Below are positions 42,315 to 63,097 of a stretch of DNA of 64,000 nucleotides, piece after piece. Position numbers and translations under genes: made by a program. The stretch is taken from assembly GCF_026802175.1 (NCBI RefSeq), contig NZ_CP113797.1, forward strand, positions 2,457,026 to 2,521,025, read 5' to 3'. This DNA is from Thermocoleostomius sinensis A174. GTDB taxonomy: Bacteria > Cyanobacteriota > Cyanobacteriia > Elainellales > Elainellaceae. Below the pieces are notes generated by a model, which saw only the letters and a list, made by a program, of their open reading frames with translations, made no database searches and was not told the origin of the DNA. Position 1 is the stretch's first letter; each line of letters opens with the position of its first letter.

Positions 42315-42620
42315 CCAGAAATTGGTGAACGTGGGTGTCCTGATCCTTTCATCATGAACCTGCTAAATACTAGATGAATTTGCAGAGAACGCATCACCTT
42401 CTTGCAAAGTTGTGCAAACCTTGATTGCTGCAATTATTCTGGCGTACTTGCCAAGAGCGCTCTTAATAGAGTTGAATCGTGATCTATGTGGCACAATCTA
42501 GCCAAAAGCCTGGCTAACTCTGTATTTCAAAATTAGTGGAATTTGCGTGATACATTTTTCCTGAAGTGACCTACACTATGGCATCATTCATCCACAATCG
42601 ATCGAACTGTACGGGAGTTT
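42315..42620. other. Divergent intergenic region
   Basis: A 306-bp gap between the leftward M15-like gene and the rightward antitoxin-like gene. It should contain promoters for both. I see no repeat or RNA-like structure worth naming. Confidence 0.45.
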
Positions 42621-42857
42621 ATGGACACTGTTGTGACAATTGAAGAAATCTTAAATTTAGCAGGACAATTATCCCTACCGGATAAGGTGCGGTTGATTGA
42701 AGAAATCGCTCCTCAGATCACCCGCGATTTGGTGTCTTCTCCGGTAACACCTCGCAAATCTCTGCTGGGTGTGTGGCGAGGGCTTGATACGATCGAAGCA
42801 GAATTGGCAGAAGCGCGACGAGAGATGTGGACAAATTTTCCCAGACGCGGAAGCTAA
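42621..42857 (+). CDS. Orphan VapB-like antitoxin
   Basis: A 78-aa protein of the cyanobacterial addiction-module type: ILNLAGQLSLPDKVRLIEEI, RKSLLGVWRG and EARREMWTNFPR. Members normally precede a VapC/PIN toxin whose start overlaps their end. Here the usual acidic ending (PRED-like) is replaced by PRRGS and the 150 bp that follow encode no PIN protein. It is therefore an orphan, perhaps a remnant of a lost toxin-antitoxin pair or a solitary regulator. Confidence 0.7.
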   Translation: MDTVVTIEEILNLAGQLSLPDKVRLIEEIAPQITRDLVSSPVTPRKSLLGVWRGLDTIEAELAEARREMWTNFPRRGS

Positions 42858-43007
42858 GAAGGAAGGCACGGCTTTCAATAGGTACTGGCAAGAAAGTCCT
42901 AAAACTGTTCGCCCCTCCTGATCTAAGAGGAACGAACGCGTGGCTATCAATTCAAGCAAAATCAAGATGAGCAGACAGGTTAAATCGGTATCAACTAATT
43001 CTCTTTT

Positions 43008-43877
43008 TTATCTTACTCGCAATCGTTCTCGAACTCGTTGAAATACGGTTCGTTCTGTTACGGATTCAACAGGCATTGTTTCTTGGATAGAATCCATATG
43101 CGCTCTTTCCGGCGAGCCAGGAAACTTGTATTCATTGTATTCCATGAGGTTCTCAAGATATTCAACAGCAAAGTTATTTTCTCCAGGAACAGTCTGATAT
43201 CGTGTAATAACTTTCTGTATCAACTCTTTGTTAAGACTGTAATTCCCCAATACGAGGCGCACAGCAAACACCTCACGATGTATACGACACTTCTCTGCTT
43301 GGTGTGGGAGCATTTCATCAAAGAGCAAGACATCACCAACAGACATGTTCTCTGCTTTGTGATTTGCCTCTAGTTCGTGATTGAGAAATTGTAGAATAGA
43401 ATGCTTATTAGAGATGCTGTTACCGGCATGGCGTACCTGACAGTCTAGGAGGTCATCCATCTGACTAATGTACCGACCGTTATAGAGCTTGAGACGCCCC
43501 CCTGTCTCTTCATTCAGATCTTGAAGGGGAATCCACAAGGTCATGGCAGTTCCTCCCTCTACACCAAAGTAGAGGCTATGCCCTGTATGCCACTCACCAT
43601 GAGATTCTTGTTTGGGGTCAGTAGGCTCACTACAAAAAAAGTTGCTGCCGATGATGTGGAGATCATCAAAAAGCTGAGGAAGCAGCGCAACCAACGACGG
43701 CATTTTATCTAGATAAACATACATTTTGTTGAGGCCGCTTCGACTGTACAACCCCTCCTGCCGAGGTAATAATTGAGCGACAGATCGAATCTCCTGGATG
43801 ATTGCCTCATCTAGAATGCCACGTAAAACATAGTAGTTGTAGGACACTGGCCCACGACCAATATTTACAAGCGCCAT
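43008..43877 (-). CDS. Fe(II)/2-oxoglutarate oxygenase-fold (PhyH-like) protein with an HxG metal motif
   Basis: A 289-aa protein of the phytanoyl-CoA dioxygenase superfamily: EWHTGHSLYF (about 95-104), MTLWIPLQDLNEETGGRLKL, GDVLLFDEMLPHQAEK and FAVRLVLG. In the superfamily the first strand carries HxD; here it reads H97-T-G99. The distal His (192) and the 2-oxoglutarate Arg (207) are present. Loss of the carboxylate to Ala or Gly is the mark of Fe/2-oxoglutarate halogenases (SyrB2, CurA-Hal, WelO5, BesD), so a halogenase is possible; an inactive or re-liganded enzyme is the alternative. AGGAG lies 11 nt before ATG 43877, supporting this start over the TTG at 43931. The gene and its 5' flank are more A+T-rich than neighbours, suggesting transfer. 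Confidence 0.7.
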   Translation of the reverse strand: MALVNIGRGPVSYNYYVLRGILDEAIIQEIRSVAQLLPRQEGLYSRSGLNKMYVYLDKMPSLVALLPQLFDDLHIIGSNFFCSEPTDPKQESHGEWHTGHSLYFGVEGGTAMTLWIPLQDLNEETGGRLKLYNGRYISQMDDLLDCQVRHAGNSISNKHSILQFLNHELEANHKAENMSVGDVLLFDEMLPHQAEKCRIHREVFAVRLVLGNYSLNKELIQKVITRYQTVPGENNFAVEYLENLMEYNEYKFPGSPERAHMDSIQETMPVESVTERTVFQRVRERLRVR

Positions 43878-44383
43878 ATCAGATTCATCTCCTAACAACC
43901 TATTCTGTAAATATGGCAGGTAATATAGCAAACACCTGTGTCTATATCCTGTCAGTGAAGCTTCGCTTTACGGGCTTTTTATAATTACATGCGCTGTATG
44001 GAATGAACCAAAAGCCAGTTTGAGGAGGAAGATAATATCGCAAAAAACCAAAAATTCTCTTGTTTTTGAAGGATGTAAGGTCTTATGGAGCTTCTTCTAG
44101 GTAAATCTTTGAGATAAGAAATAATACTAAGGTGAGTAAAGTTTCGGTAGAGATCAACAATCTTAATATTCTTTTTGTAGAGATCAACAATTTTCCTTTT
44201 GTATTCTTGTTTACGCCTTGTCAATGTACTGCGGCTGTACGATTATTTTCCGGACTCAGATTTAATGAGTGTCTACAGCTTCACTAGTCTTCGTTCCGTT
44301 ACAAAATCAAAATTACAGAGATACATCACAGAGATACATTACACAAATACTGGATAATAGAGTGTCTCATATCAACACCTTCA
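43878..44383. other. A+T-rich intergenic region with a 30-bp-spaced direct repeat
   Basis: A gap of about 500 bp upstream of both the leftward oxygenase gene and the rightward HAD gene. GTAGAGATCAACAAT occurs at 44147-44161 and 44177-44191. A leftward frame of 79 codons (44224-43985, TTG start) spans it and encodes the repeat as KIVDLY, but it has no other support and I do not call it a gene. Base composition differs from the surroundings. Confidence 0.5.
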
Positions 44384-48038: not shown

Positions 48039-48233
48039 CTATTGAGGAGACGAGCCTATTGTACTGAGGTAATTCAGTTCATCCACAATTTCCCAGCAGA
48101 GTCCTTTAGGGACATAGCTTTCTATAGTAGGCACCGAATAGGGTGCGTGTAGCCTTCCGGTTTTGAGCGCAGCCGCAAGTCCGACTAAAGCCGGTTGGCT
48201 TAGCTTCAGGGGGACATCACAGCCCTCCCACAT
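48039..48233 (-). pseudogene. drmC: Truncated DISARM drmC (N-terminal fragment)
   Basis: A 64-codon frame starting inside the last codons of drmB (17-bp overlap). KLSQPALVGLAAALKTGRLH, then APYSVPTIESYV and IVDELNYLSTIGSSP resemble the N-terminal helical part of DrmC, the phospholipase-D-family protein that ends class 1 DISARM operons. The frame stops at 48039-48041, and no HKD motif or further DrmC sequence follows before the glycosyltransferase gene. The gene therefore appears cut by deletion. Identification rests on position and a short similar stretch. Confidence 0.65.
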
Positions 48234-50025
48234 CAAAAAACTCTGCTCCCAGACCTTCGACTATATCTATCACCAGTGCCCGATCGAGAAACTCATTGCG
48301 GCGTTCACAGGACGGTTCTGCAATCAGCAAGCAGCCATGACAGGCCGCACCATGTAGGAACCGATCCTCCTGGGGATTGTTAGGTTGATGTTGAGCGCAC
48401 ACCGGATCATTGGAACAGAGTTTGCCCATCTCCAAGGCGTTGATCAGATGGTATTCAATTCGCTGCCCAACTTGAACCAAGCCACCGAGCGTCCCTTCAG
48501 ATCCAGAAGTGCCCGTATAGAGTAAAATGCCATAGCCTGATTCCCCTGTGTAAATGCGCTCTCGAATGGCACTAGCCGCGTAACCACACTCCAAAGAAAC
48601 TGCCGTGATCAACAGGTGCGACAGCGAGTGCAGCATGATGTAGGGCAAGCCGGGAAACTTGGCTTTGTCTGGGTCAAGTCCCCGTTGGCTGCGCCACTCG
48701 TCAAAGCCTTGATACAGAATGCGACCCCGTTTTTGTACCGCATCTTGTTTGAGCCAGTGTTCGATCGCTGCTTTCTTGAACGAAATGAAGATGCCTTCCC
48801 CCTTGTTCTCGATCGCAGGCACCCAGGTAGGTTCAATATCCAGGGCAGCACGGCGCACATCCAGCGACAATTCCCCATCAATATCGGGCATGGCTGCCTC
48901 AAAGCGAGTGAAGCCAACTTGAGCAATGACCTCCCGCAACCGATGAACCAAAACAATGCGATCGATCCGGGCGGATAGGAGTGGGGTGAGTCCGTCTAAG
49001 TGTCGAGTTCGAGCGTAGAAGTCACCCTCCGGTACATCTTCCCCGACCTCATCTGGTTGGGACAGTAGGGTTTCAATTTCAACCTGTTTAATGCTTTTTG
49101 GCTTATCAACTGAGCCACTTTGACGGCGCTTTATTTCTGTCCAGACTGCTTCATCGCTAAAGGCTTCGATCGCCGTTGCTACTTTCTGTTTTTTGCGATC
49201 GCGTTTAATATCGCCAATGTCTTCCGCAAATTGCAGAAAATCTTCGTAGACCAGATCGACTGCCTTCCGCAGTGCTTCATCCGAGTCTGGCAAGGAGATA
49301 ACACTGAGGACTTGAGCAAAGTAGGCATTACTGGCAGAACGTACCAGCAAACGGTTATATTCTGGTTTACCCGTGGTTTGAGAGACACAAAATTCCTTCG
49401 CCGCAGGACCAAGCCAGGGACGATGCCCATCACACGATCCTAAAACTCTGCCATTGGGAACGGTTGCATCGGAGAGGGGACGACGGGCTTTACAGGCTTC
49501 GCAGCGAACGAAAATATCCACGAAGTCATTTCCAGATCCCCCTTCATCTAACCAAAGTTGCCCTCGACAGTTACGATTTGGGCTATCACCATGCACAAAG
49601 CGTACCGGAACTACAGGAACCTTCTTCCTCTCTGGGGTCAGATACTTTCCTTTCACTAGGCTGCCCCAAGGCAGGAGAGGACGGGTTCGGTAGCTGCGAC
49701 CGTTGGGTGCATTCCAAAACTCTTCGATCTGCGCCAGAAACCAGGTTGGGAAAACGAAAGATGTAATGCCGCTACGAGTTGCTTTGGGGTCTTGTTCGTC
49801 TACTGGTGGGGCATACATAGCAATCTGCTTAACTTCCAGTAGTTCACAGACTCGTTCTGCTAACCGATCCTCGTAAATACGACGGCGATCGCCCTTCCAG
49901 TGGTTCAGTCCCCCAATCAATATTGAATGGTTGGGCAGATCAACCATCGCTCCAGGTCCAAAGGTGGAAATAATTTGGCTTTGCCGAATTTCTCCAGAAG
50001 GAGGTCGCTTATTCTTCGCTTTCAT
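48217..50025 (-). CDS. drmB: DISARM protein DrmB (DUF1998)
   Basis: A 602-aa DUF1998 protein. The N-terminus (GEIRQSQIISTFGPGAMVDL) is the classic DrmB start. The C-terminal DUF1998 region shows YIMLHSLSHLLITAVSLECG, LLYTGTSGSEGTLGGL and four Cys likely to bind zinc (LCSNDPVCAQHQ and ACHGCLL). DrmB works with the helicase DrmA as the core DISARM complex that recognises incoming phage DNA. Its ATG follows the drmA TAG directly, with GAGGAGG inside the end of drmA, so the two are coupled. Confidence 0.92.
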   Translation of the reverse strand: MKAKNKRPPSGEIRQSQIISTFGPGAMVDLPNHSILIGGLNHWKGDRRRIYEDRLAERVCELLEVKQIAMYAPPVDEQDPKATRSGITSFVFPTWFLAQIEEFWNAPNGRSYRTRPLLPWGSLVKGKYLTPERKKVPVVPVRFVHGDSPNRNCRGQLWLDEGGSGNDFVDIFVRCEACKARRPLSDATVPNGRVLGSCDGHRPWLGPAAKEFCVSQTTGKPEYNRLLVRSASNAYFAQVLSVISLPDSDEALRKAVDLVYEDFLQFAEDIGDIKRDRKKQKVATAIEAFSDEAVWTEIKRRQSGSVDKPKSIKQVEIETLLSQPDEVGEDVPEGDFYARTRHLDGLTPLLSARIDRIVLVHRLREVIAQVGFTRFEAAMPDIDGELSLDVRRAALDIEPTWVPAIENKGEGIFISFKKAAIEHWLKQDAVQKRGRILYQGFDEWRSQRGLDPDKAKFPGLPYIMLHSLSHLLITAVSLECGYAASAIRERIYTGESGYGILLYTGTSGSEGTLGGLVQVGQRIEYHLINALEMGKLCSNDPVCAQHQPNNPQEDRFLHGAACHGCLLIAEPSCERRNEFLDRALVIDIVEGLGAEFFDVGGL

Positions 50026-53000
50026 CTATTCATCCTCCTCAATCTCAAAACCATCGGGATTGCGTACCCACAGGTTCACTGTTTGTTCCACATCCCGTAA
50101 ACTGCGTTGTGCTTTGAATTTACGGACTTCTAAAGGCTGGCGTTCTAGCTCCGGATCAAGGGGGTCAAACAAGAGCGGTGGAGCTTGCCCCACCTCCTGC
50201 TGATACTGGAGCATGATTTTCTGGCTGGCGATATGCTCCCAAGTGTCCAAAAGGCTGATGACCCGTCCTTTTACCTTTTGGCGAAGATCATCGGCATCCT
50301 TGTCATTGAGTGCTTTGTCATGCATCTCGGCTCGATGAGCAATCACATCGGCAATTCCTTCTAAATCCTTGCGGTGTTGCAAAATATCAATTGCTCGAAG
50401 GGGAGCAGTCATACGACGATCGCCTAATCTCGCGAGGGCAACCGTAATAGCTGCAATCCCTCGATCAATGGCGCGGGGGGAAAAGGGGGTGACACTGGTG
50501 GCTTCCACTGCCCGGTAGAAGGTGATGTGTCATGCCTGAAAGCGTTCATAGTGAGAGCGATCGCGGGGACGGTGAACATTGAGGAGCGTGATCACTAAGC
50601 CGGGGCGCTTTTCGTCTCGACCCACCCGACTAGTTGCCTGGATGTATTCAGCCGCCGTTTTGGGTTGCCCTAACACGACCATCAGACCCAAGCGGGTAAT
50701 ATCTAGACCCACCGAAATCATGTTGGTTGCCAGGGTGACATCAACGTGTTCCTTATCCTGGAACGGCAAAGCCAGACGACGTTTCGTATCAGCAACCTGG
50801 TTGGTGCTAACACGAGAGGTTAATTCCAGAGGCAGATCGTTAATTTTGCGATCGGCAAAGGAACCTTCTGCTTCTCCAAGTCGCTTGCGCTGACTGTATT
50901 GGGTTAATCGGGCATTTACTTCATCTTCCACAATGCGGCGGCTCCCACCCAGTTCCCGTAGAGAGTTGAAGTAGCCCAGTAGCGTCATATAGGGGTCAGC
51001 AGGATTATTGGGATTTTCGCTCCCACCGGCCAGTTCCCAATCTTTTTGGGCAGCCCCCAGCAATGCCAGATAGGTTCGCAGCAGCACAACTTTCAAACTG
51101 CGTCCCTGAGCAGCAATGCCAATGTAAGTGCGGGCATTTTTCTCAGTAGCAGGAACCGTTTTGGCAAAAAAGGAATCGCGGCGATCGGGTCCAGGAGGCG
51201 GAAACACATCCACAGCCTCTCGCCCAAATAAAGCACGAATTTGATTCGTTGCCCGGCGAACTGTTGCGGTGGATGCCACAATTTTGGGACGAATCTGTTT
51301 TTGCTTTCCCTCCTGGGTAGACAGGGCATCAATGGCGGTTTCGTAAAGTCCAACCATTGTCCCAAGTGGCCCGGAAATCAGGTGTAATTCGTCTTGGATA
51401 ATCAGGTCTGGCGGAGGGAGGGGGTGGTTGAGGGGGTGTCCGCGACCGGGACGGCAGGGTCCATAAAAACCGTCTTTGTCGTAGCGTTCGACTTTACCAA
51501 ACAGTCCACCCGTTTCACCGACCCAGGGCAGACTGGCGAATTTATCCACTGTGGCGATGATGAAACAGGGCAACCGTCGATAAATTTGATCATCGACCGT
51601 CAGAATGGGTAGCGGCTGATTGCCGATAAACGCGCATTGCGGCTTGCCATCCGATCGTTTTTTGCGGTTGACGCAGGCAACTCGAAGGTCATCTGGTTCG
51701 TTAGGGTCGGGCAGTAATTGGAAGGAATTTTTGGTGAAACGGGTCCCACACCAGGGACAGTTTTCTAAGGGAATGGGAGAAGGCTTCTGTCTGTCGTTGT
51801 TTTGGTAGGCGATCGTTCTTGCCCGTGCGCTGTTTTCGTCTCCATCTCCTTTCTTTCCCATCTTGTTGGGAGTTGCGGCTTGGCCTACCCACAGACCAAT
51901 CTCAAAAGGATGCTTGCCTAATTTTTCCACGTCGTTCTGTCGTTCCAGTTCCAGGGCACAGATCAGGGTTGCTGCCCGTCCGAGTTGGTCGAGCGTCAGC
52001 AGCCGCAGTGTGTAGCGCATCAGCACACTTAAACCTGCCGAGTGAATACCAGGCTGACGCAACCGTCGTAGCACCAGCGTAAACGCGGCCAATCCTAGGT
52101 ATGCCTCGGTTTTACCGCCGCCTGTGGGAAAAAAGAGGAGATCGACGAGTTCTCTGTCGTCCTGTTCTGGGTTAGCAATGCCGACAATGTTCATCAGCAG
52201 AAATGCCAACTGGAAGGGTCGCCACTTTGGAGCAGACAGAGACTCTGGCATAACTCCTTCTTTGTCATGGGTCAGCCGCTGACGAATGGCGGTGGCAATG
52301 GCACGGTTGGCGATGCGGAATGCTTCAAACACCTGCGGGTCGTTCATCGCTTGCAGTCCGGCTGCAATTCGCTGGTTAGCAATCACGGCTCGGTTGAGCA
52401 AATCGCTTGCCGTTTCCGATCGATGTTTGGGACTGCTGGGTGCTTTGGCTCGTTGTTCTGCGATCCATTCGGCATAAGCATCGACCATTGGCTGCAAAAA
52501 GTCGCGTAATGCAGCAGGTGTTGGGGCAGCGGCAAGGCGTTCCATCTCCAACTCAACGTCGGGCACTGTAGCTGGAATCACCTTCTCGACATCTGCGGTC
52601 GGTATCCAGGCAGTCCAGGCTTTTTGGCAAATGCCACCAGGCTCTACCATCGCAATTGCCGAAACGTTGTGCCCAACTGCAAATTCATAATCATCTCGAT
52701 ATTGCAGGTCTGCGACTCGCTCATCCCAGTCTTCACCGTTACCACCGCGTAAATCAGGACGGGGAACAAAGGCATCTTCCGTCTGAATGATCAATTTAGT
52801 TTGAAAGGCATGGGCAGCATCGGAGGCTTTATTGGGAGCCGGACGGCGTTGATTCACCAGGAAGATGGAGACGGAGCGTGTGCCGGGGGGCACTAAATCT
52901 TCGGAAGTTACGGAGCGGGCAGAAACCATTAACTTCAGCCCTTTGCTCTCTGGAATGTCGAATTCCAATGGCGTTTCGCTGATTTGAATGGGTACTGTGA

Positions 53001-53445
53001 GGTTGGCGTGGCGAGGAGTGCGCTGCCAGGTTCCGACTCTCAGTGTGCTTTTGGATTCTGCTTCGATTTGATCAGTGAGGAGTGGCTTGTAGTCGCCCCA
53101 GCAGACGGTGATATGCAGAGAGGAGGTCTGTTTAGGGACTAAAAGGCTCATTCCCATTGATGAGGGAAAAAAGCCTTTGCGGGCAGAGGATTTATCAGGA
53201 GTTGCTTCATCGTCACCTGCCCCGGAACGACTGACGGCATCCAGTTCATCGTCACCTGTGTCATCCGATCGCACGTCTATTGGAGCATTGCAGGGTACCA
53301 GGAACCCGGTGAGATACCACTTGGAAGGCGGTTGGGGAATAATTTCTTCGGCGTGAGCCAAATCATCGGGAGTGGGGCCAACTAAATCCAGTTGTAGAGC
53401 ATCGAGCAGGTGAGTGCGAACCTCAGCAGGGGTAGTAGACGACAT
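50026..53445 (-). pseudogene. drmA: DISARM helicase drmA interrupted by an in-frame TGA
   Basis: The first 971 codons encode the DrmA helicase: Walker A LFFPTGGGKTEAYLGLA (about 438), the DEXH-like IIQDELHLISGPLG (about 684), and motif VI region AAEYIQATSRVGRDEKRPG near the end. TGA at 50532-50530 follows HYERFQA; the same frame then continues HITFYRAVEATSVTPFSPRA for 167 more residues to TAG at 50028, which is normal DrmA sequence. One base change (Tyr or Trp codon to TGA) therefore splits the gene. The 3' part could be translated from GTG 50508 (160 aa), leaving a two-piece protein. Otherwise this is a nonsense pseudogene or a sequencing error. It belongs to the island drmD-drmMI-drmA-drmB-drmC. 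Confidence 0.88.
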
Positions 53446-53597
53446 AGATAGCCTATTAGGAGCAGGGCATTAATACCAGAATGCCCACAAATTGCTGAGA
53501 ATTCCGGATGGGTACTCACAGCTTCATGAAGGCTTGAGGTAGGCATCTATTCATTGAGGTTCGATGGCAAAGGTGTGGTAGCCTGACCACCTTCGCC

Positions 53598-53822
53598 ATG
53601 GCTGCACGAGATCTCTACCATGATGCGGTGAAATCAGCCTTGATTAAAGATGGTTGGGTGATTACGGCTGATCTATATTTCATCAAATATGAAAATACGG
53701 AGCTATATGCCGATCTTTGCGTCGTTGACGATTTGTTGGCGGCAGGAGTGCCTAAACAAGATATTGTGCTGGGATTTCAGCATCCGAGTAAGCGCCCATT
53801 GACAGAATTTGCCATTACCTGA
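53598..53822 (+). pseudogene. XisH-XisI deletion chimera
   Basis: A 74-codon frame. Residues 1-39 (MAARDLYHDAVKSALIKDGW, then YFIKYENTELYADL) are the start of XisH, the fdxN-element excision controlling factor family. Residues about 42-74 (DDLLAAGVPKQDIVLGFQHP, then KRPLTEFAI) are the end of XisI, the gene that normally lies directly downstream of xisH. About 100 codons of xisH and about 75 of xisI are missing, so one deletion joined the two genes in frame. The product, if made, lacks the XisH nuclease-like core. Confidence 0.75.
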
Positions 53823-53856
53823 TCAGGTAGGATTCTTTGTTTTGAGTAGTTGCTTG

Positions 53857-54444
53857 CTACAGTTTGCCTGCCAGAATTTGAGTGGCTGTGAGGTTGAGGT
53901 CTGGAAAGGTGGGAGACTGGATTAAGTCATCGCCTCGAAATTCTGTGGAGTCATAAAACTGATGCTCCAGGATACAGAGAGTAATTTTTTCTTCCAACGG
54001 GTCAACGATCCAATATTCGGAGATTTCTAGCAGCCCATATTCAGAGCGTTTTGAGCGATAGTCGTCGGTTTTGGTGGAGGGGCTAACGACTTCGACGACC
54101 AGAATCGGGGGTGGCTCATTGAGATTGATCACGGCTTCACGATCGCTCATGGCTTCCCATTGAGCCGCTGCCAAAACAGTGACATCGGGAATGCGAGAAG
54201 TATCCCAATTTCGCCCACGTGGAGAGCGAACGCCGACAGTCATTTGTTTGGAAGTCCAGGGAAGTTCTCGACGTTTGATCTGCTCACGAAACTGATCGTT
54301 GAGAAATTCGGCAATCCCACCATGTTTACCAGTTCCTAGACTCATGGGTACGAGTTCTCCATCGACTAATTCGTAGCGGGTGTCTGTGCCATCGTCGTAG
54401 GCAAGATACTCTTCAAAGGTGAGTTTCTGGGTGGCGATCGTCAT
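53857..54444 (-). CDS. Uma2 family (DUF820) nuclease-fold protein
   Basis: A 195-aa full-length Uma2 protein: [20 protein letters not shown] with [38 protein letters not shown] and [14 protein letters not shown]. These supply the acidic and Lys residues of the PD-(D/E)XK-like site. It lies between the methylase and helicase genes of the DISARM island and is an insertion relative to the usual operon. Role unknown. Confidence 0.85.
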
Positions 54445-54470
54445 AGCACTGGCTCCTGAGAAGGTAGAAT

Positions 54471-54773
54471 TTATCCTTTAGACCGCAGCCGCTTGCCTTC
54501 GGCAACAGCGAAGCTTTCGCGGAACTCCATGACTGCATCAAACTGGGCAGCAGGTTTGACGTAGCGGGTCAACAGCGAAAAATCTAAATTGGGCAGCAGT
54601 TCACTGCTGGCAATCACTTCGTAACCTGTTGAGCGCAGGTGATAAATCTGAAACTGTCCATTCTGCCACTGCCAGACTTCCGTAACGCCCAGGCCCTGGT
54701 AAATGTCTAGCTTGTTAACGAGCCGCTGTTCGGTAGCGGGAATGGCTGATTGGGTCAACATGGGAGAACTCAT
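54471..54773 (-). pseudogene. Internally deleted Uma2 gene
   Basis: A 100-codon frame. It begins with a Uma2-like leader (MSSPMLTQSAIPATEQRLV) and jumps to the C-terminal third of the fold (NKLDIYQGLGVTEVWQWQNG, LYHLR-like QIYHLR, ELLPNLDFSLLTRYV). The central PD-x-V and E-V-x-S-P active-site region is missing. It may still be expressed as a small protein, but catalytic activity is not expected. It lies 27 bp upstream of the intact Uma2 gene. Confidence 0.65.
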
Positions 54774-54836
54774 GGGAATTCTGCTCTAAGGAGGTGATTT
54801 TAGTATAGGTTTCGACCATGAGCTTCGACTAAACGG

Positions 54837-57800
54837 TTACGCTTCCAATCCAGGTAGGGGTGGAGTATTCGATCGTCCACTCTTCCCGGTTTTTGTGCCT
54901 TTCGATCTACCTTTCTTCTCGGCTTGCTTGCCGCCCAGGAGTTCTTGCTCGTAGCGTTGCTGATTCAGGTCGAGCAGTCGTGCCAGCACTTCATCATGAG
55001 TAGCTTCGTTCCAACGGTAGCGATAGGGCTTTTTGCGGCGTGAGGAGTGGTTAGTAGTTAGTGAGGAGTGGTTAGTCTGTCTACTATTCACTGCCCACTG
55101 ATCACTATTCACTGCCCACTGATCACTATTCACTGCCCACTGATCACTATCCACCTCATCCTCATCCTCATAATCCAGCAGGAATTCGCATTGGGGTTGA
55201 ATGTCATCCCAGCCGTAGGCAGCAAGAACCGCACGATCCATTTCGTCATGCAGTTGGCGCAGTTTGAGGATGTCGGGATCGAATTCGTTGGGGTCGTGGA
55301 AGCGGTTGTAGGTTTGGGTCAAGCCTTCGTTGTTGCGAACCATCAGATCGGCGCGGAAGTCGTAGTATTGTTTGCCAATGGCTTCTAGAGTGGATAGTGG
55401 GTGAGTGGATAGTGGTGAGTGTTCTTTACTATTCACTATCCCCTGATCACTATTTCCCTCTTCACTATTCACTATCCCCTGATCACTATTTCCCTCTTTA
55501 CTATTCACTATCCCCTGATCACTGATGACTCTGGGGAAGGGGAAGGTTTCAAAACAATCAGAAGGTGTGTATTGCAAATCGTCCTTCAGAGTAGAACTAA
55601 AAAATCGTGTCCAAATTTCATGAATACGAGATTGAAGAATTGCAAATGGCGGATATGTATCGAAGGGAAAAACGACAGTTTTCTCGTTGTAAACCATACC
55701 TTTTGGTAGAAATGTAAACGCACATGATTTGCTGATACGAGAAATAACTAACACCCGATCGCATTCTGCAATTGCTTTTCTTAACTCAACTCTATCAGCA
55801 CCGAAAAGCCACCATTTTGCAGCAACAGTTTTATTCCAAGAATTCTTAGGAGGCAAAGCAATCCTTGTAGGTTTAACTTTCTCTTCAACAATCGCCATCA
55901 AGTCAGGATGCTTTCGCGCTTCAGCTTCGCTCATTTCTCCAAAATTAATCACATAGCGATGGTGAGAATGAGTTGGGCTACTGTTCACTTCTTCGCCACC
56001 AATATAAGGGAAAATACATTCCTGATTGCGTCGATCTTTCTCAATCAAACGATGCATTTCAGCGATCGGTGTTGCATCTTCATTTGTGTCATCAAAAGTG
56101 AATCCCATACCCAAAACAATGCTGCCCTGAAAACTCTTATTAGCATTCGCCAGCAATGTATTGGGATTATTATTTCCACCTTTGGGGAACAGAAACGCGG
56201 AGATCAACGGAACTTCTTTCCCATCTAAGAATTTTGCTTCTTTATACAGTCCTTTGTAGATGTGAATCACGCTCACCACAACCGCCGCTTGCCCCACCCA
56301 TTTCACCCGTTTGCGAGCGTTGTAGATTGTGCCGCCATGCTCACAGATCCAGCGTAACCCTGTGCTGCGCGTATCGCCTTGAGCGATCGTATTTGTCGCA
56401 ATCAATCCAAAACTGCCGCCTTCTCGCAGTAGCTCATGCGATTTGCGGAAGAAATAAGCCACCAAATCAGAATTACCATGTGACTCTGGATAGTATTCCT
56501 TGAGCCAAAGCAAGTAGTTCTCGGCATTACCGCTGATAATGGTATTTTTGCCCGCAAAAGGTGGATTGCCAATGATGCAATCAAACCCCGGATTTTCCCG
56601 CTCAAATACCTCTAGAAATTCATCTTCCCAGTTGAATGGGACGACTGCATGTTTACCCATTCTCAGCCGCTCTGAAATTTGCCACAACTCTGAAGCATTC
56701 ACCCAACCCGCTTCATAGCCGATCAGCTTACTGCTATATTCCTGCTGTTTTTGCTGCCGCTGTTTGCGCGTTCTGCCCTCCAACTCAGCCTGAATCATGG
56801 CATCCGCAACTAAGCCTTCCCGCGCCGGGTTCACGTCCAGCCCTTCAGCATCGTAAATTTTCAGCTTTGCCAAAAATTGCTCTAGTTTCGCCGCTCGCTG
56901 TTTCGCGTTTGTGCCCTCAAAAAATGCCGACACCATCAAATCTGCGGCAAGGCGCGATCGACGCAGTAAATCTTCCGACTCCTGTAGATAACGCCGTTTC
57001 GCATCCTCATCTGCATCTGTTTGGGTATCTGCATTCTGAATCTTCTGGCGAGTTTTTAAAATTCGTGAGGTTGTCTCTGCCTCTGCCTCTGCTTTTAACC
57101 GTCGCTGATACTCATCCAGCGTTGGCTCATAAAACGCCTTTTGGCTAAACTGCAAAATTTCCCTGCGCTTTACCCCCACCAAAGAATCGCCACACTTCAA
57201 CGAGTGATCCAGAAACGTAAACGGCATACTCTTTGAAAGCGTAAACAGCCACAGTGATAGCTTTGCCAAATTCACAGCAAAGGGGTTTTTATCCACACCA
57301 TACAAGCACCGCTGCGCCACCAACCGCCGCGCATACAGCAACGGTTCCTCTCCCTCCGGCAAATCCTCCGGTAAACCATCCCGGTTCCATGCCGTTTCTA
57401 CCTGGTCTGCCAATTGGCGACAGGCTTCCACCAAAAATGCTCCGCTCCCCATCGCAATATCCGCTACTTTCAGCGATAGGATTTGTTCTGCGGTGGGCTT
57501 GTCACCCAATGCCGCTAAAACTGGGCGCAATGCCGTTTCTACAATTGGTTCTGTGAGCGATCGCGGTGTGTAGTGTGAGCCAGTTCGTCGTCGTTCCTCA
57601 CCGGGCTGCAAATACAGTGACCCCGCAGGTAATAAATTGGGTGTGCGTGGTGACACCTTGCGACCCAATGCGGCTACCACGTCCGTCGCCGTTTTCGCCG
57701 CCTTTAACTCATTCAGTGCCTTGCCTGCGACCTTACACGCCGCCCAGTTTTGCAACAGTTTAGCGCGATCGCCTGGTTTCGCTGCCAGTAGCGTTTCCAC

Positions 57801-59270
57801 ATTCACCACCACATCCTGGGGACGTACTGCGATCGATGTTCCCTCTGCCCGTTCAATGGCAAAACCCATGATCGCGGTGTACACAGACCCAATTTCAGAG
57901 ACTCCGAGTGACCTGTACGACAACCGTTCGCCATTCAACATCAGTAGGCGATCGAGCATCCGATACACCACACCATCGGGAATGCGCGGAACGTTTGGGC
58001 AGAGGGGAGTGGGGAGTCGGGAGTGAGGAGTCGGGAGTGAGGAGTGGTTAGTGAGGAGTGGGGAGTGGTTAGTCTGTCCACTATTCCCTCCACTATTCAC
58101 TGCCCACTGATCACTATCCCCTATCCCCTGCTCACTATTCCCTCTCCCCTCCAAAAACGCATACTCATCCGGATCAAACAATTGTCCATGCCGCGCCGGA
58201 AGATACTCTGGAGTTTCTCCACCCCCGTCATAGACCAGTCGAAACAGGCTCAACAGCCACGCCCAGGCTCCATACCGTTGATCCATCGTGTCGGGATAGT
58301 TGCCTGCATCCGATCGCAGCCGCTCAAATAAACCTGATACCGCATAGTTACGCTGATATAGGTCATCTCCCGGCATCAGCCCCTCATCCTCTGCATATAG
58401 CAGAAACACCAGCCGCATCAGCGTTGTGATCAGCCCACCATAAATGTGCTGCGGATTTTGGCTTGCCAGTTCGCCCAATAGTCTGCCGTTGACTGCTGCA
58501 TCTGCCATCTGAAAACCACGCAGGAGTTCCCATAGGGCATCTACCACCTGATTTGCCAGCGCAGTCGAAACCTCTGCCTGATACTTACGGCTCTCTTCCA
58601 ACAAATCCTTCAGCCGTCGCCCCGTTGGAGCCGTAAATACCCGATAGGCAGAGAGCAACATTTCCATTGCCCCCAAGATCAGCCGCCCTGATACTTCACA
58701 CATTGCCTGCACCGGAAACGTCAGGTGTCCCGACGATTCCCCTTTCGGTGCATAAACTAATCGGATGTCTGTCCCGTTGCACAAAATCCCGATCGGAACC
58801 CCTGCCTCCCGCAGCAACCGCTCAAACTTTGCCTGGGGACTGGCTGCCCATTTACCTGTCTTTTCGTCTGCTGAATTCACCTCATCCAGATTTGCTCCCG
58901 GAGCAATCACCTGAATCAGCATCAGCCAGCCATCGCTGTCCTGTACTCCATAACTAGGTGCAAGAATTTCGCCATAATCCGGCAACGCAACTTCCAATTC
59001 CCTTAAAGCATCACTGCTAATCAGATCGCTTGACTCCCAACCCAGTACATCCACCACAAACATCTGAAAATCGAAAATCCAGGCGCGGCTGTCATCTACT
59101 AGTTGAAGATCGCGACTGATTGCCGACAACAGCGATTGCTGTAAACCCACTACATTGCGATTGACGATCGCTTGTGCTTTCACCAATGCTGGAGGCGAAA
59201 CGACCAGCCCCACAGGTTGCAGGAAGCCGAGCCACTCTTTATGTCGAAGCAATTCTGGATCAGTTGCCAT
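54837..59270 (-). CDS. drmMI: DISARM adenine-specific DNA methyltransferase DrmMI
   Basis: A 1477-aa N6-adenine methylase of the Eco57I/PglX-like class. SAM motif I is VADIAMGSGAFLVEACRQL (about 600) and the catalytic motif IV is CIIGNPPFAGKN (about 898), with RRTGSHYTPRSLTEPIVE just before motif I. In class 1 DISARM this enzyme marks host DNA as self. The protein is longer than relatives partly because three low-complexity segments built of short repeats are inserted in frame (about residues 370-425, 1250-1290 and 1370-1410, with SDQWAVN or SDQGIVNS units). All lie outside the catalytic motifs. Confidence 0.88.
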   Translation of the reverse strand: MATDPELLRHKEWLGFLQPVGLVVSPPALVKAQAIVNRNVVGLQQSLLSAISRDLQLVDDSRAWIFDFQMFVVDVLGWESSDLISSDALRELEVALPDYGEILAPSYGVQDSDGWLMLIQVIAPGANLDEVNSADEKTGKWAASPQAKFERLLREAGVPIGILCNGTDIRLVYAPKGESSGHLTFPVQAMCEVSGRLILGAMEMLLSAYRVFTAPTGRRLKDLLEESRKYQAEVSTALANQVVDALWELLRGFQMADAAVNGRLLGELASQNPQHIYGGLITTLMRLVFLLYAEDEGLMPGDDLYQRNYAVSGLFERLRSDAGNYPDTMDQRYGAWAWLLSLFRLVYDGGGETPEYLPARHGQLFDPDEYAFLEGRGNSEQGIGDSDQWAVNSGGNSGQTNHSPLLTNHSSLPTPHSRLPTPLCPNVPRIPDGVVYRMLDRLLMLNGERLSYRSLGVSEIGSVYTAIMGFAIERAEGTSIAVRPQDVVVNVETLLAAKPGDRAKLLQNWAACKVAGKALNELKAAKTATDVVAALGRKVSPRTPNLLPAGSLYLQPGEERRRTGSHYTPRSLTEPIVETALRPVLAALGDKPTAEQILSLKVADIAMGSGAFLVEACRQLADQVETAWNRDGLPEDLPEGEEPLLYARRLVAQRCLYGVDKNPFAVNLAKLSLWLFTLSKSMPFTFLDHSLKCGDSLVGVKRREILQFSQKAFYEPTLDEYQRRLKAEAEAETTSRILKTRQKIQNADTQTDADEDAKRRYLQESEDLLRRSRLAADLMVSAFFEGTNAKQRAAKLEQFLAKLKIYDAEGLDVNPAREGLVADAMIQAELEGRTRKQRQQKQQEYSSKLIGYEAGWVNASELWQISERLRMGKHAVVPFNWEDEFLEVFERENPGFDCIIGNPPFAGKNTIISGNAENYLLWLKEYYPESHGNSDLVAYFFRKSHELLREGGSFGLIATNTIAQGDTRSTGLRWICEHGGTIYNARKRVKWVGQAAVVVSVIHIYKGLYKEAKFLDGKEVPLISAFLFPKGGNNNPNTLLANANKSFQGSIVLGMGFTFDDTNEDATPIAEMHRLIEKDRRNQECIFPYIGGEEVNSSPTHSHHRYVINFGEMSEAEARKHPDLMAIVEEKVKPTRIALPPKNSWNKTVAAKWWLFGADRVELRKAIAECDRVLVISRISKSCAFTFLPKGMVYNEKTVVFPFDTYPPFAILQSRIHEIWTRFFSSTLKDDLQYTPSDCFETFPFPRVISDQGIVNSKEGNSDQGIVNSEEGNSDQGIVNSKEHSPLSTHPLSTLEAIGKQYYDFRADLMVRNNEGLTQTYNRFHDPNEFDPDILKLRQLHDEMDRAVLAAYGWDDIQPQCEFLLDYEDEDEVDSDQWAVNSDQWAVNSDQWAVNSRQTNHSSLTTNHSSRRKKPYRYRWNEATHDEVLARLLDLNQQRYEQELLGGKQAEKKGRSKGTKTGKSGRSNTPPLPGLEA
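55086..55148. repeat. Three perfect 21-bp repeats inside drmMI
   Basis: Three identical 21-bp units (55086-55106, 55107-55127, 55128-55148; each contains CCCACTGATCACT) encode SDQWAVN three times on the minus strand. Flanking DNA (55030-55085) is of the same short-repeat style and encodes RQTNHSSLTTNHSS. Confidence 0.92.
55426..55522. repeat. 36-bp repeats inside drmMI
   Basis: Two full 36-bp units and a partial third (CTATTCACTATCCCCTGATC in each) encode NSDQGIVNS(E/K)EG on the minus strand. The unit is twelve codons, so the frame is kept. Confidence 0.88.
58000..58155. repeat. Short-repeat insertion in the N-terminal half of drmMI
   Basis: A patch of GGGGAGT, GAGTGGTTAGT, CACTATTC and CCCACTGATCACT motifs encodes a Ser/Asn/Pro/His-rich low-complexity segment (QGIGDSDQWAVNSGG and NHSPLLTNHSSLPTPHS). 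It belongs to the same repeat family as the other two patches and keeps the frame. Confidence 0.8.
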
Positions 59271-59276
59271 TTTAAG

Positions 59277-59346
59277 TAGATAGTAGTTAGTAGATGGTGG
59301 TTGGTAGATAGTGGTTGGTAGATAGTGGTTAGTAGATAGTGGTTAG
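59277..59346. repeat. TAGTTAGTAGATAGTGG-type repeat array
   Basis: Several copies of (GATAGTGGTTGGTA / GATAGTGGTTAGTA) fill the spacer between the S23-like gene and drmMI. They overlap the end of the S23-like gene by a few bases and lie immediately before the drmMI start codon, so they may form part of its leader. Confidence 0.8.
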
Positions 59347-59711
59347 TGGCTGAGTTTTTTGCGAAGTGTAGATAGCATCTTTCGCAGTTCAGTGATGAGT
59401 ACAAAAGAGTCGTTGCTTTCGGCTTTTGTGCAATAACCTAGTTCAACCGCAACGATAAGTTGAGTGTCTAATTCAGCAATTGAACCTTCTGCGATCGATA
59501 AAAATTGGATGAACTGCTGTGTTGTATGACGGGCTTGTCCTTCGGCAATGTTGGAAGGAATTGACACAGCCGCTCGTCTCATTTGAGAAATAAGACCAAA
59601 TTTCTCTTCAGCAGGAAAGTTTTGAGTTAGCTGATAAATCCGCTTAACTAAAACAATTCCCCGTTGCCAAACAATCAAGTCCTTGTAGTCCTTAACGCTA
59701 TTTCCACTCAT
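59343..59711 (-). CDS. Four-helix bundle (S23/bAvd-like) protein
   Basis: A 122-aa protein of the 23S-rRNA-intervening-sequence/four-helix-bundle family: YKDLIVWQRGIVLVKRIY, FGLISQMRRAAVSIPSNIAEG and QFIQFLSIAEGSIAELDTQL. It is related to the accessory Avd proteins of diversity-generating retroelements, but no reverse transcriptase or variable repeat is nearby. It lies between drmD and drmMI, with short-repeat arrays on both sides, and is not a normal DISARM gene. Function unknown. Confidence 0.85.
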   Translation of the reverse strand: MSGNSVKDYKDLIVWQRGIVLVKRIYQLTQNFPAEEKFGLISQMRRAAVSIPSNIAEGQARHTTQQFIQFLSIAEGSIAELDTQLIVAVELGYCTKAESNDSFVLITELRKMLSTLRKKLSH

Positions 59712-59835
59712 CTGTTTCCTCCCCTTTCACTTCCCACTTCCCACTTTTCACTCCCCACTAACTACTAACCACTCCCCACTAACCACTTCCCACTCCCCAC
59801 TAACCACTTCCCACTCACTTCCCACTAACCACTAA
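59712..59835. repeat. CCCACTAACCACTTCCCACTCCC-type repeat array
   Basis: A run of heptamer-like units (CCCACTT, CCCACTA, ACCACTC, ACCACTT) on the plus strand between the S23-like gene and drmD. The array runs into the last codons of drmD. This is a typical cyanobacterial short tandemly repeated sequence. Confidence 0.85.
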
Positions 59836-62800
59836 CGGGTTGCAAGTACACCAAACCAACAGGCTCTATTCGCACCGCTTTGACTTGATAGGCAGCTTTA
59901 ATTCGAGCAGGTTCGCTAATGAGTTCGACCTCTAGCGACTGCAATCGCCTTTCCCAGTGGCGACGATCGGCTTCTAGCTGCTGTGCTTCGGCTTCAGCAA
60001 ATAGCGATAGCTGGAGATTACCTGCGGTTTCTTTTTGGCGTTTGAGGATGCGATCGCGCTGCTCCTCTAAAATTGCCTGCATCTCTTCAGCTTCCTTCTG
60101 TCCCCGTGCTTGCAGCTTTTTCTGGGCACGTTCAATCAAAACAGCCGCACGGCGATCCAAATGCGGTCTCAGTTCCTCCACATCTTGTGCTGCCGCTTGT
60201 CTGAGGCGTTGTTGTACCGATTCAGGCACCTGATGCAGTCGGGGACTTGCTAGCGAGGTTTCTAGAACTTGCAACACATTGTCTTTTTCACCTTCGCCCA
60301 GCGGACGCAGTTTCGATCGCCCCCGTGCCTCCGGTGCAATCCACTCGGCAGCCACAGCAATCACTTCATCGTGCAACCGAGAAGCGCGATCGCCATACAG
60401 CGACAGCCGTCCCAACACAACTACACTGAGAATCGGGCGATCGGTCAGGCAGACACAGGCACGAGTCAACTCATCGTGCAGAAAGCCTTGCGCCAAAAAT
60501 CGCGACAACAACCGCTGCACAATCCGGTGTTCTAGGTGCAAATGCACCACTTCACCATCCAGTGAACCTGGATCACGGAAAACGACTGGACGAATAGGAG
60601 ATTCCCGCCGCCAGTCCCAAAGCTTCTGCCCCCGTTTTCGAGGTGCTCTTAAGGTATCCAGTGTTGTTGCCCAGGTCGGATCAGCGCCAAACCGCTGATC
60701 GAGGGCAGGAATGTCCCATTTCGCAGTAGCAGGCTCGTAAGCTGCTTCGTTCGGATCAACGGGTTGAAGGGAATTGGCTCCTAAAATTTCCAATGAAGCA
60801 GAGATGGCATCGCGAAAATGGCGATCGTCCAACCCTAACCACTTCTGCGACTCGCTCAGCATTCCCTGAAGCAGCGCGTTTTGCTGTTCTAACTCCTGTC
60901 GCCGTAACCGTACTTGCTCCAGTTCTTCGCTGATCATTTCAGCATTGAACGATGATTCATCCGTCTGATCTGCTTTAGCAATCGCCGCTTCCAACCGCGC
61001 CGCTTCCCCATGCTGAATGCCATCTGCTAATAACTGGTTGACATTCCGCTCCAACACCAGCGATAGGCTGCCCAACTCCCGTTGGATAATATCGGTTTTT
61101 CTGAGCAGCGTATCGAGTACCCGATCTTCAGTGCGCTGAGAAAATACGAAATAGTGACAGTAGACAACAGGCGATCGCTGGAGTTTGCGGTCAATTCTGC
61201 CATTTCGCTGCTCTAGGCGTGAGGGGTTCCAGGGCAAATCAAAATGGAACAAGTCGGCACAATGATTTTGCAGGTTTACCCCTTCTCTTGCCGCATCAGT
61301 GGCGATTAGAATTCGCAGTGGATGTTTGGCAGGATCACTGTTAAAGGCGAGCTTAATCTCTTCCCGTCGATCGTCTCCCATGCCGCCATGAAACACAGCA
61401 ATCCGCTGACGTTCCTGATCAGAACCCGCAATGATTGCCTGTAACTGCTGCTGGAGGTAACGTTTGGTGTCGGTGTATTCCGTAAAGATGATGACGCGGC
61501 GATCGTTCCAGGTTGCTCCATCCGTCCCTAACTCAGGGCATTGATTGTCCTGAATCCATTGCGCTAACTTTTGAATGCGAGGATCGGGCAAATGACGAGC
61601 AGCATTGGCAATCTGCGTCATCTCATCCAGCAGTTCCAATTCCCGTGCAGATGGAATAGAAGCGTCTTGCTCGGTTGCCACCCGCATCTGAGCGTTCTCT
61701 TCCGCCTCTACCTCGTCTTCAGTTAACTCAGCGCGATCGTCATCTGCTCCTGCTGATTCTTGCAGTAAAGGAAATGACAGGCTATTCCTATTTTTAGTTT
61801 CTGCCAGAGGAGATGATGCTTGTTTCGCTTGTTTGGCGATCAGCACTTCACCACTATGTTTGGCGATTGCCGTCTGATGAACTTTCAACGTTCGGGCAAA
61901 TGCTTCAATGGATGAGAGCAACCGCTTTTGCAGCGACAGCAGTACCAATGCCGCTGCCCTTTGGGTTGATTTGGGCGCAACCTTAAGCCGCTCCTCTCGC
62001 AGTTGTCGATACGCTTGCAGCAACCGAGACAACTGAAGTTCCGGAGCATCACTGGGTAGTCCATCAATGCTCATGCGAACCACAATTCGCTCTGGAAAAT
62101 CATCCCCAATCTCACGCAGATCGCTTTTGAGCCGTCGTACCATCACTGCATCCAGCAGTTTACGATTTCGTACAGGTACACCTCGACAAAACCGTTGTGG
62201 ATCAAGGATTTCGAGCAGTGCTGCAAAACTATTTGAGTGACCGTTGTGGGGAGTCGCAGACAGAAACAGCTTATGCTCAAACCGAGGAGCTAAATCACGC
62301 ACCGTGCGGGTTAATTGAGAGTCGATCGCGTACTTGGCTCCACTGGCAGGTGCCGCATTATGCGCTTCATCCAAAATCAACATTGCCCCTGCCGAGAATT
62401 CTCCCAACCAGTCTCGTAACGGTGCTGCATAAGTTTCGTCACGCAGCAGCGCATGGGAAATGATAAAGCGGGTATGGGTTGTCCAGGGATTAATGCTATA
62501 ACCGCGCTCTCGCCGCCGACTGGCAACAAATTCGCGATCGACAATCAAAAACGTCAGCCCAAAGCGGCTTTCCATTTCTTCCTGCCACTGTCGCACCACA
62601 GAAGGAGGACAAGAGATGACCACCCGCCGCACCTTTTGGCGCATCAGCATCTCGCGCAGAATTAGCCCTGCCTCGATCGTCTTGCCCAAACCCACATCAT
62701 CGGCAATGAATAGCCCAACTCTAGGCATCAGCAATGCCTTCCGCAACGGTTCAAGCTGATAGGCTTTTACCTCAATTCCTGCCCGGTAGGGAGCCTGAAA

Positions 62801-63097
62801 CAGTTTTGGGTCTGTAGAGGTAACGCAACTCCAGCGTAGGGTATGCAAGTAAGCCGAAAATAGTTTGGGATTATCAAAGCCTCTTGCAGCAACGGATTCC
62901 CACGAGGCTGTTCCAATGTAGCGAGCATCAACTTCCCGTTCCCAAAGTATCTCTAACGTCTCGCCTAGTGCATCATCATCTAAACAAGCAAGACGCACTC
63001 GTGTATCTTCTTGAGGTGTGTGCGTCTCTAAAACGTCTTCGACCAAATATTGCCGAGAGCGAACTCGGACAATACTTCCAACCTCAACAGCCGTCAT
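59825..63097 (-). CDS. drmD: DISARM SNF2-type helicase DrmD
   Basis: A 1090-aa SNF2-family ATPase: Q-motif region YQLEPLRKALLMPRVGLFIA, Walker A DDVGLGKTIEAGLIL (about 131), DEAH box ILDEAHNAAP (about 243), motif III LSATPHNGHS, and C-terminal helicase motifs IIFTEYTDTKRYL, IATDAAREGVNLQ and LEQRNGRIDR. A long coiled coil (about 940-1040) precedes the end. DrmD defines class 1 DISARM, together with DrmMI. It is the first gene of the leftward island. Confidence 0.93.
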   Translation of the reverse strand: MTAVEVGSIVRVRSRQYLVEDVLETHTPQEDTRVRLACLDDDALGETLEILWEREVDARYIGTASWESVAARGFDNPKLFSAYLHTLRWSCVTSTDPKLFQAPYRAGIEVKAYQLEPLRKALLMPRVGLFIADDVGLGKTIEAGLILREMLMRQKVRRVVISCPPSVVRQWQEEMESRFGLTFLIVDREFVASRRRERGYSINPWTTHTRFIISHALLRDETYAAPLRDWLGEFSAGAMLILDEAHNAAPASGAKYAIDSQLTRTVRDLAPRFEHKLFLSATPHNGHSNSFAALLEILDPQRFCRGVPVRNRKLLDAVMVRRLKSDLREIGDDFPERIVVRMSIDGLPSDAPELQLSRLLQAYRQLREERLKVAPKSTQRAAALVLLSLQKRLLSSIEAFARTLKVHQTAIAKHSGEVLIAKQAKQASSPLAETKNRNSLSFPLLQESAGADDDRAELTEDEVEAEENAQMRVATEQDASIPSARELELLDEMTQIANAARHLPDPRIQKLAQWIQDNQCPELGTDGATWNDRRVIIFTEYTDTKRYLQQQLQAIIAGSDQERQRIAVFHGGMGDDRREEIKLAFNSDPAKHPLRILIATDAAREGVNLQNHCADLFHFDLPWNPSRLEQRNGRIDRKLQRSPVVYCHYFVFSQRTEDRVLDTLLRKTDIIQRELGSLSLVLERNVNQLLADGIQHGEAARLEAAIAKADQTDESSFNAEMISEELEQVRLRRQELEQQNALLQGMLSESQKWLGLDDRHFRDAISASLEILGANSLQPVDPNEAAYEPATAKWDIPALDQRFGADPTWATTLDTLRAPRKRGQKLWDWRRESPIRPVVFRDPGSLDGEVVHLHLEHRIVQRLLSRFLAQGFLHDELTRACVCLTDRPILSVVVLGRLSLYGDRASRLHDEVIAVAAEWIAPEARGRSKLRPLGEGEKDNVLQVLETSLASPRLHQVPESVQQRLRQAAAQDVEELRPHLDRRAAVLIERAQKKLQARGQKEAEEMQAILEEQRDRILKRQKETAGNLQLSLFAEAEAQQLEADRRHWERRLQSLEVELISEPARIKAAYQVKAVRIEPVGLVYLQPVSG

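Follow-up and report, generated by a model that had tools for sequence, protein, structure and literature searches.

A stand-alone PhyH-fold protein of Thermocoleostomius sinensis with an HxG metal motif, a candidate Fe(II)/2-oxoglutarate halogenase

The protein P0001, encoded in a 64,000-nucleotide stretch of the Thermocoleostomius sinensis A174 genome (the window), has a predicted PhyH fold in which glycine appears to replace the iron-binding carboxylate of Fe(II)/2-oxoglutarate (2OG) enzymes. Together with an ortholog from another phylum, it constitutes a new and rare subfamily of PhyH-fold Fe/2OG enzymes. The best single reading of the evidence, to which we assign a probability of about one half, is that P0001 is a halogenase of a free small molecule. 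Lack of the carboxylate, which the ortholog shares, is typical of enzymes that chlorinate unactivated carbons, and P0001 is thus a credible, though unproven, stand-alone halogenase of a new kind.

The reading frame lies on the minus strand, with an ATG at 43877 and a stop codon ending at 43008, and encodes 289 amino acids. The ortholog (L046:6531-7361) begins MALLAIGQGPASYN, which aligns with MALVNIGRGPVSYN of P0001. Because the two proteins start at the same residue, the ATG is taken as the true start, and a longer, TTG-started frame was rejected. The features of the gene are as follows.

43008..43877, minus strand: gene P0001, a 289-residue PhyH-fold Fe(II)/2OG enzyme with an HxG metal motif (reading frame, Pfam match and frame of the ortholog)
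43886..43892, minus strand: AGGAGAT, read from the sequence a few bases before the ATG, a likely ribosome-binding site
43581..43589, minus strand: codons CAT ACA GGG of H97-T98-G99, with the proximal His ligand and the Gly that takes the place of the carboxylate (alignment columns; H-S-G in the ortholog)
43302..43304, minus strand: codon of His192, the putative distal iron ligand, in GDVLLFDxMLPH192-Q-A-E (alignment)
43257..43277, minus strand: codons of R201 to R207 (R-EVFAV-R-LV), the candidate 2OG-binding Arg pair (alignment; both in the ortholog)

The first-pass annotation had described the gene as A+T-rich. Its GC content (44.5%) is below that of the window (49.8%), but the difference is mild; the upstream intergenic stretch has 35% GC. 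This A+T-rich stretch also contains a 30-base imperfect tandem repeat in two copies (44142-44201).

Around the putative metal site, P0001 reads GEW96-H97-T98-G99-H100-SLYFG. Three alignments were made with 37-40 or 11 PhyH homologs from cyanobacteria, viruses and planctomycetes. In all three, Gly99 falls on the Asp column, H97 on that of the proximal His and H192 on that of the distal His, which bears out the earlier claims that glycine replaces aspartate and that both His ligands are kept. The spacing from the His to the following Trp is 18 residues in P0001 and in two of the homologs (L002 and L004), and the alignment is gap-free there. His192 is invariant in one of the alignments (A6) and matches H228-Q of the CurA halogenase domain (CurA Hal). 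By alignment, the H-x-D/E...H facial triad is absent from both orthologs, which appear to combine two His ligands with a Gly at the carboxylate position, as a halogenase would. The 2OG-binding arginine was also said to be kept, and this is probably right, but with a displacement: its usual place, eleven residues after the distal His, is occupied by Val203 in P0001. Allowing for a loop two residues shorter, R201 and R207 show the R-x5-R spacing found both in CurA Hal and in PhyH relatives. With this two-residue gap, they would be the counterparts of CurA Hal R241 and R247, which we take to be its 2OG arginines, and would supply the arginine expected on strand VIII of a halogenase.

Structure prediction with AlphaFold2 was poor from P0001 alone (pLDDT 33.6) and improved on a 12-sequence alignment from which CurA was absent (pLDDT 74.9, pTM 0.79, parts of the core above 90). 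The predicted structure is a double-stranded beta-helix, as in the PhyH fold. A fold search of the PDB with this model gave 441 matches at E<=0.001, of which the best 50 are all Fe/2OG enzymes. The five best are chains of the CurA halogenase (E 1.6e-12 to 8.2e-12, TM about 0.55 over some 290 columns), followed by the mycosporine hydroxylase MysH (3e-10). After MysH come SptF, a proline hydroxylase and SnoN; the matches next to CurA are hydroxylases and an epimerase. Modeling, which the earlier note had suggested as a check, thus yields a good fold with an HxG halogenase as its first match, while the placement of Gly99 comes from alignment.

At the level of sequence, membership of the PhyH family (PF05721) is marginal for P0001, which scores 21.7 bits against a cut-off of 22, and clear for the ortholog, at 27.9 bits. 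NCBIfam and PHROGs searches with P0001 returned nothing. A PDB sequence search with P0001 alone gave no match at E<=10, SyrB2 and CytC3 included, and none was found with a two-sequence profile of P0001 and P0002. Neither of the two outcomes that the first-pass annotation had named as grounds for abandoning the halogenase assignment was seen: close homology to characterized hydroxylases was absent from both searches, and a characterized HxG halogenase ranks first among the structural neighbors. Relatives of P0001 at E<=1e-4 are absent from 35 genomes of its family and 390 genomes of its class, and a rescan of the class with the two-sequence profile gave weak matches only. Neither ortholog has a match among phages or plasmids. 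Scans of genome_contigs and viral_contigs with P0001 only, in which poorly conserved peptides served as seeds, returned nothing, and four DNA pattern matches on viral contigs (L011-L014) were rejected as out-of-frame false positives.

The ortholog was retrieved by a search of 85k genomes with a small seed alignment in which the W-H-x-G-H and W-I-P-L stretches had been varied by hand. This gave four loci, one of them a true ortholog (L046), in a pattern-seeded scan of genome_contigs from which more distant orthologs may have escaped. L046 is carried by the Planctomycetota MAG OFTM220, and its product is 59% identical to P0001 over residues 1-257. Its motif reads W-H-S-G-H-S-L-Y-F-G, with Ser in place of T98, and it keeps H97, G99, H100, H192-Q-A-E, C197, R198, R201 and R207. 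The family is very rare: it occurs in one of 390 cyanobacteria, one of 392 sampled Planctomycetota and one of 154 genomes of the ortholog's own order. A binning error, in which a stray cyanobacterial contig entered the planctomycete genome, is unlikely, as the GC3 of the ortholog (91%) is that expected for a high-GC host.

Comparison of the two genes at the nucleotide level gives dN 0.38 and a saturated dS, and different codons are used at 105 of the 159 identical residues, including Gly99 (GGG vs GGC). These values indicate purifying selection on the protein, its HxG site included. Since the ortholog keeps the site residues through so many synonymous changes, HxG is maintained by selection rather than being an accident of mutation.

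Among characterized enzymes, the CurA halogenase domain (3nnf/3nnj/3nnl), from cyanobacterial curacin A biosynthesis, offers the closest comparison. In a profile alignment it reads W-H115-V-G117, W-I-P-L, G-G, H228-Q and R241-RAFVI-R247-L-V (numbering is chain position minus a 24-residue offset), and P0001 shares W-H-x-G, W-I-P-L, the G-G after the strand, H-Q and R-x5-R-L-V. The resemblance is nevertheless weak, at about 17% identity and TM 0.55. A three-sequence profile (A7: P0001, P0002 and one viral PhyH protein) matches CurA at E 0.0095. Scored with the two-sequence profile, CurA reaches 12.7 bits, against 4.0 for the best of 300 shuffles and 18-28 bits for several HxD PhyH proteins; these comparators were the best matches from hundreds of genomes, whereas CurA was not so picked and was scored on a 160-residue stretch only. 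The proteins nearest to this profile by sequence are HxD PhyH enzymes. In a tree, CurA groups with the two orthologs at 72/93, a placement that is not firm and involves long branches. When the Gly99 column is dropped the grouping is lost (AU test p 0.265). Sequence trees therefore neither establish nor exclude a sister relationship to CurA Hal, and the likeness is kept as a structural lead only. A clade with SyrB2 and CytC3 is disfavored (p-AU 0.033): their cyanobacterial relatives L042, L043 and L038 form a separate clade, and L042 matches CytC3 at 3.5e-25. Clustering with characterized enzymes, the other check proposed earlier, therefore speaks against SyrB2/CytC3 and gives CurA as the best match by fold but not by sequence. 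The HxG of P0001 probably represents an independent lineage, or else a distant relative of CurA Hal.

Other known enzymes share some of these features. SyrB2 and CytC3 resemble P0001 in their PhyH fold and in an iron site of two His where a small residue replaces Asp, but carry HxA rather than HxG and act on carrier-bound substrates. MysH, SnoN/SnoK, ThoJ, PtlH, EctD and PHYH share both fold and Pfam family with P0001; MysH differs in keeping the carboxylate, as H-N-D, and the HxD carboxylate is likewise kept in the others. BesD, AdaV/AdeV, WelO5 and the biotin halogenase BtnX are free-standing and carrier-free, with free small molecules as their known or stated substrates. HxG/A has served as the selection motif for AdaV relatives (PMC11186838). 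BesD, AdaV and WelO5 are absent from the sequence matches of P0001 and from the best 50 of the 441 fold matches, and BtnX reaches only E 1.1 with the three-sequence profile.

As a halogenase, P0001 would be a catalytically competent PhyH-fold enzyme that binds iron through two histidines only, H97 and H192, with Gly99 leaving the carboxylate site open for a halide. The most likely chemistry is the cycle of known Fe/2OG halogenases, with which two His, an open third site and the candidate 2OG arginines agree. Binding of 2OG and of Cl- or Br- to the iron, followed by reaction with O2 and loss of CO2, would generate a halo-ferryl (chloro-ferryl) species. This species would abstract an aliphatic hydrogen, and the halogen would rebound onto the carbon. 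Iron, 2OG and halide binding, and halogenation itself, are thus steps that we infer. The substrate would be a free small molecule rather than a carrier-bound one. CurA Hal is a polyketide synthase domain that works on a carrier-bound substrate (PMC4227530), whereas P0001 is a stand-alone gene. The earlier description of the gene as isolated, with no obvious carrier protein, holds for the flanking reading frames tested: no NRPS, PKS, carrier protein or biosynthetic cluster was found in this subset of the window's frames. No PKS, NRPS or carrier domain is evident near the ortholog, which is likewise isolated and appears, from its reading frames, to adjoin genes for a subtilisin-like protease and a tetratricopeptide/CHAT-type protein. 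Because both genes stand alone with no carrier nearby, a free small-molecule substrate is probable. A broader version of this reading is more tentative, and we hold it at clearly less than an even chance: that P0001 and its ortholog form a new subfamily of stand-alone Fe/2OG halogenases, deeply divergent and with a CurA-related fold, acting on a free metabolite outside gene clusters and transferred horizontally between cyanobacteria and planctomycetes.

The HxG motif alone does not prove halogenation, because human AspH, which carries HxG naturally, hydroxylates and does not halogenate. AspH is a 2OG oxygenase whose HXG...H site, like that of P0001, provides two His ligands; water W1 occupies the free site, and the enzyme hydroxylates protein domains (PMC13168262, PMC10947486). 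P0001 could by analogy be an active 2OG oxygenase in which two His and a tightly held water complete the site, hydroxylating, desaturating or epimerizing its substrate and leaving halide unused. We regard this as a possible but rather doubtful alternative. It accords with the HxD PhyH enzymes that are nearest by profile and with the hydroxylases and epimerase that follow CurA among the fold matches. The curators of a halogenase pipeline caution that HXG/A marks the class but that searches with it give false positives (PMC12871659), and substitution of glycine for the aspartate of prolyl 4-hydroxylase (D414G) conferred no halogenase activity (PMC2767507). Against this alternative, CurA Hal chains are the best fold matches, and the HxG/HxA PhyH enzymes in the sources cited here (SyrB2, CytC3 and CurA Hal) are halogenases. 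AspH itself lies outside the PhyH family. Taken together, the earlier proposal of a possible Fe/2OG halogenase gains from the conservation of HxG across phyla and from the first rank of CurA by fold, and is tempered by the AspH and prolyl 4-hydroxylase precedents and by the dependence of the CurA grouping on Gly99.

A non-catalytic descendant of PhyH enzymes, used in binding or regulation, is improbable. One of three ligands has been lost, and the protein is a rare orphan with no known pathway, as such a descendant might be. However, purifying selection has strictly kept both His and both candidate 2OG Arg residues in two phyla, something that a dead enzyme would not require.

We know of no PhyH enzyme in which another residue serves as third metal ligand, and an unusual three-His or displaced-carboxylate oxygenase, using H100 or an acidic residue such as E195, is more improbable still. 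The ortholog shares H100, three residues after H97, which in one alignment (A8, with L044) can stand opposite the metal His in place of H97, and E195, D141 and E95 are conserved acidic residues that are rare in HxD relatives; but W-H97 fits the W-H-x-D consensus of most relatives, the model places H97 in a strand bridge and residues 100-103 in a helical turn, and the three-His D414H variant of prolyl 4-hydroxylase is inactive (PMC2767507).

Few enzymes can halogenate a free small molecule at an unactivated sp3 carbon, and those that do are in demand for synthesis. If the halogenase reading is true, a family of stand-alone HxG proteins, CurA-like in fold, conserved in two phyla and unflagged as halogenase by family models, would be a new starting point. 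Should P0001 not halogenate, it would join AspH as a second HxG oxygenase in nature and be, to our knowledge, the first HxG non-halogenase in the PhyH family, and a test of whether HxG predicts halogenation.

The genomic surroundings bear on the origin of the gene. On one side P0001 adjoins the gene of a 572-residue protein that has no Pfam match and on the other that of a HAD phosphatase, followed by genes for a peroxiredoxin-type protein and a glycosyltransferase. Comparison with one relative from its family (G015) delimits a further feature.

42315..44383, no strand: about 2.07 kb between the divergent genes for the 572-residue protein and the HAD phosphatase, a putative insertion carrying P0001

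In G015 the HAD and 572-residue protein genes are also divergent, but their aligned ends lie only tens of bases apart. Because the interval here is about 2.07 kb, P0001 probably arrived by insertion in its lineage, as judged against this one relative; in three other relatives the 572-residue protein gene lies away from the HAD gene. The putative insertion also contains a 78-residue reading frame (42621-42857, plus strand) that reads like an addiction-module antitoxin, with no evident toxin partner. Elsewhere in the window, positions 48217-63097 encode MrfA-type zinc-binding and helicase proteins, a Uma2 nuclease, an MmeI-like restriction-modification protein and an SNF2 helicase, and this region looks like a defense island.

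Several further PhyH genes with unusual metal motifs were encountered in the genomes searched. The genome of P0001 itself contains two adjoining PhyH genes (L006 and L007, G000:C1:4074790-4076371), one with H-R-N, which places Asn at the carboxylate position, and the other with a normal H-Q-D. Three adjacent cyanobacterial PhyH genes (L019, G166:C1:1000617-1003203) have H-Q-N, H-Y-H and H-Y-H for HxD, with a fourth PhyH match about 6 kb away. L042 (G379) and L043 (G614) are PhyH proteins with an apparent C-terminal carrier domain; L042, which is CytC3/SyrB2-like, has H-Q-A, and L043 has H-Q-V, whose Val is unusual at the halogenase position. L038 (G261:C1:2159746), a PhyH protein with H-K-A that groups with the SyrB2/CytC3-like proteins, is a possible halogenase. 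PhyH domains also occur in very long frames of 1532-2193 residues (L004 in G165, L020 in G598 and L021 in G314), possibly natural-product enzymes; in L004 the domain precedes a thioesterase-like domain and another PhyH-like stretch, and L020 carries two PhyH domains in tandem.
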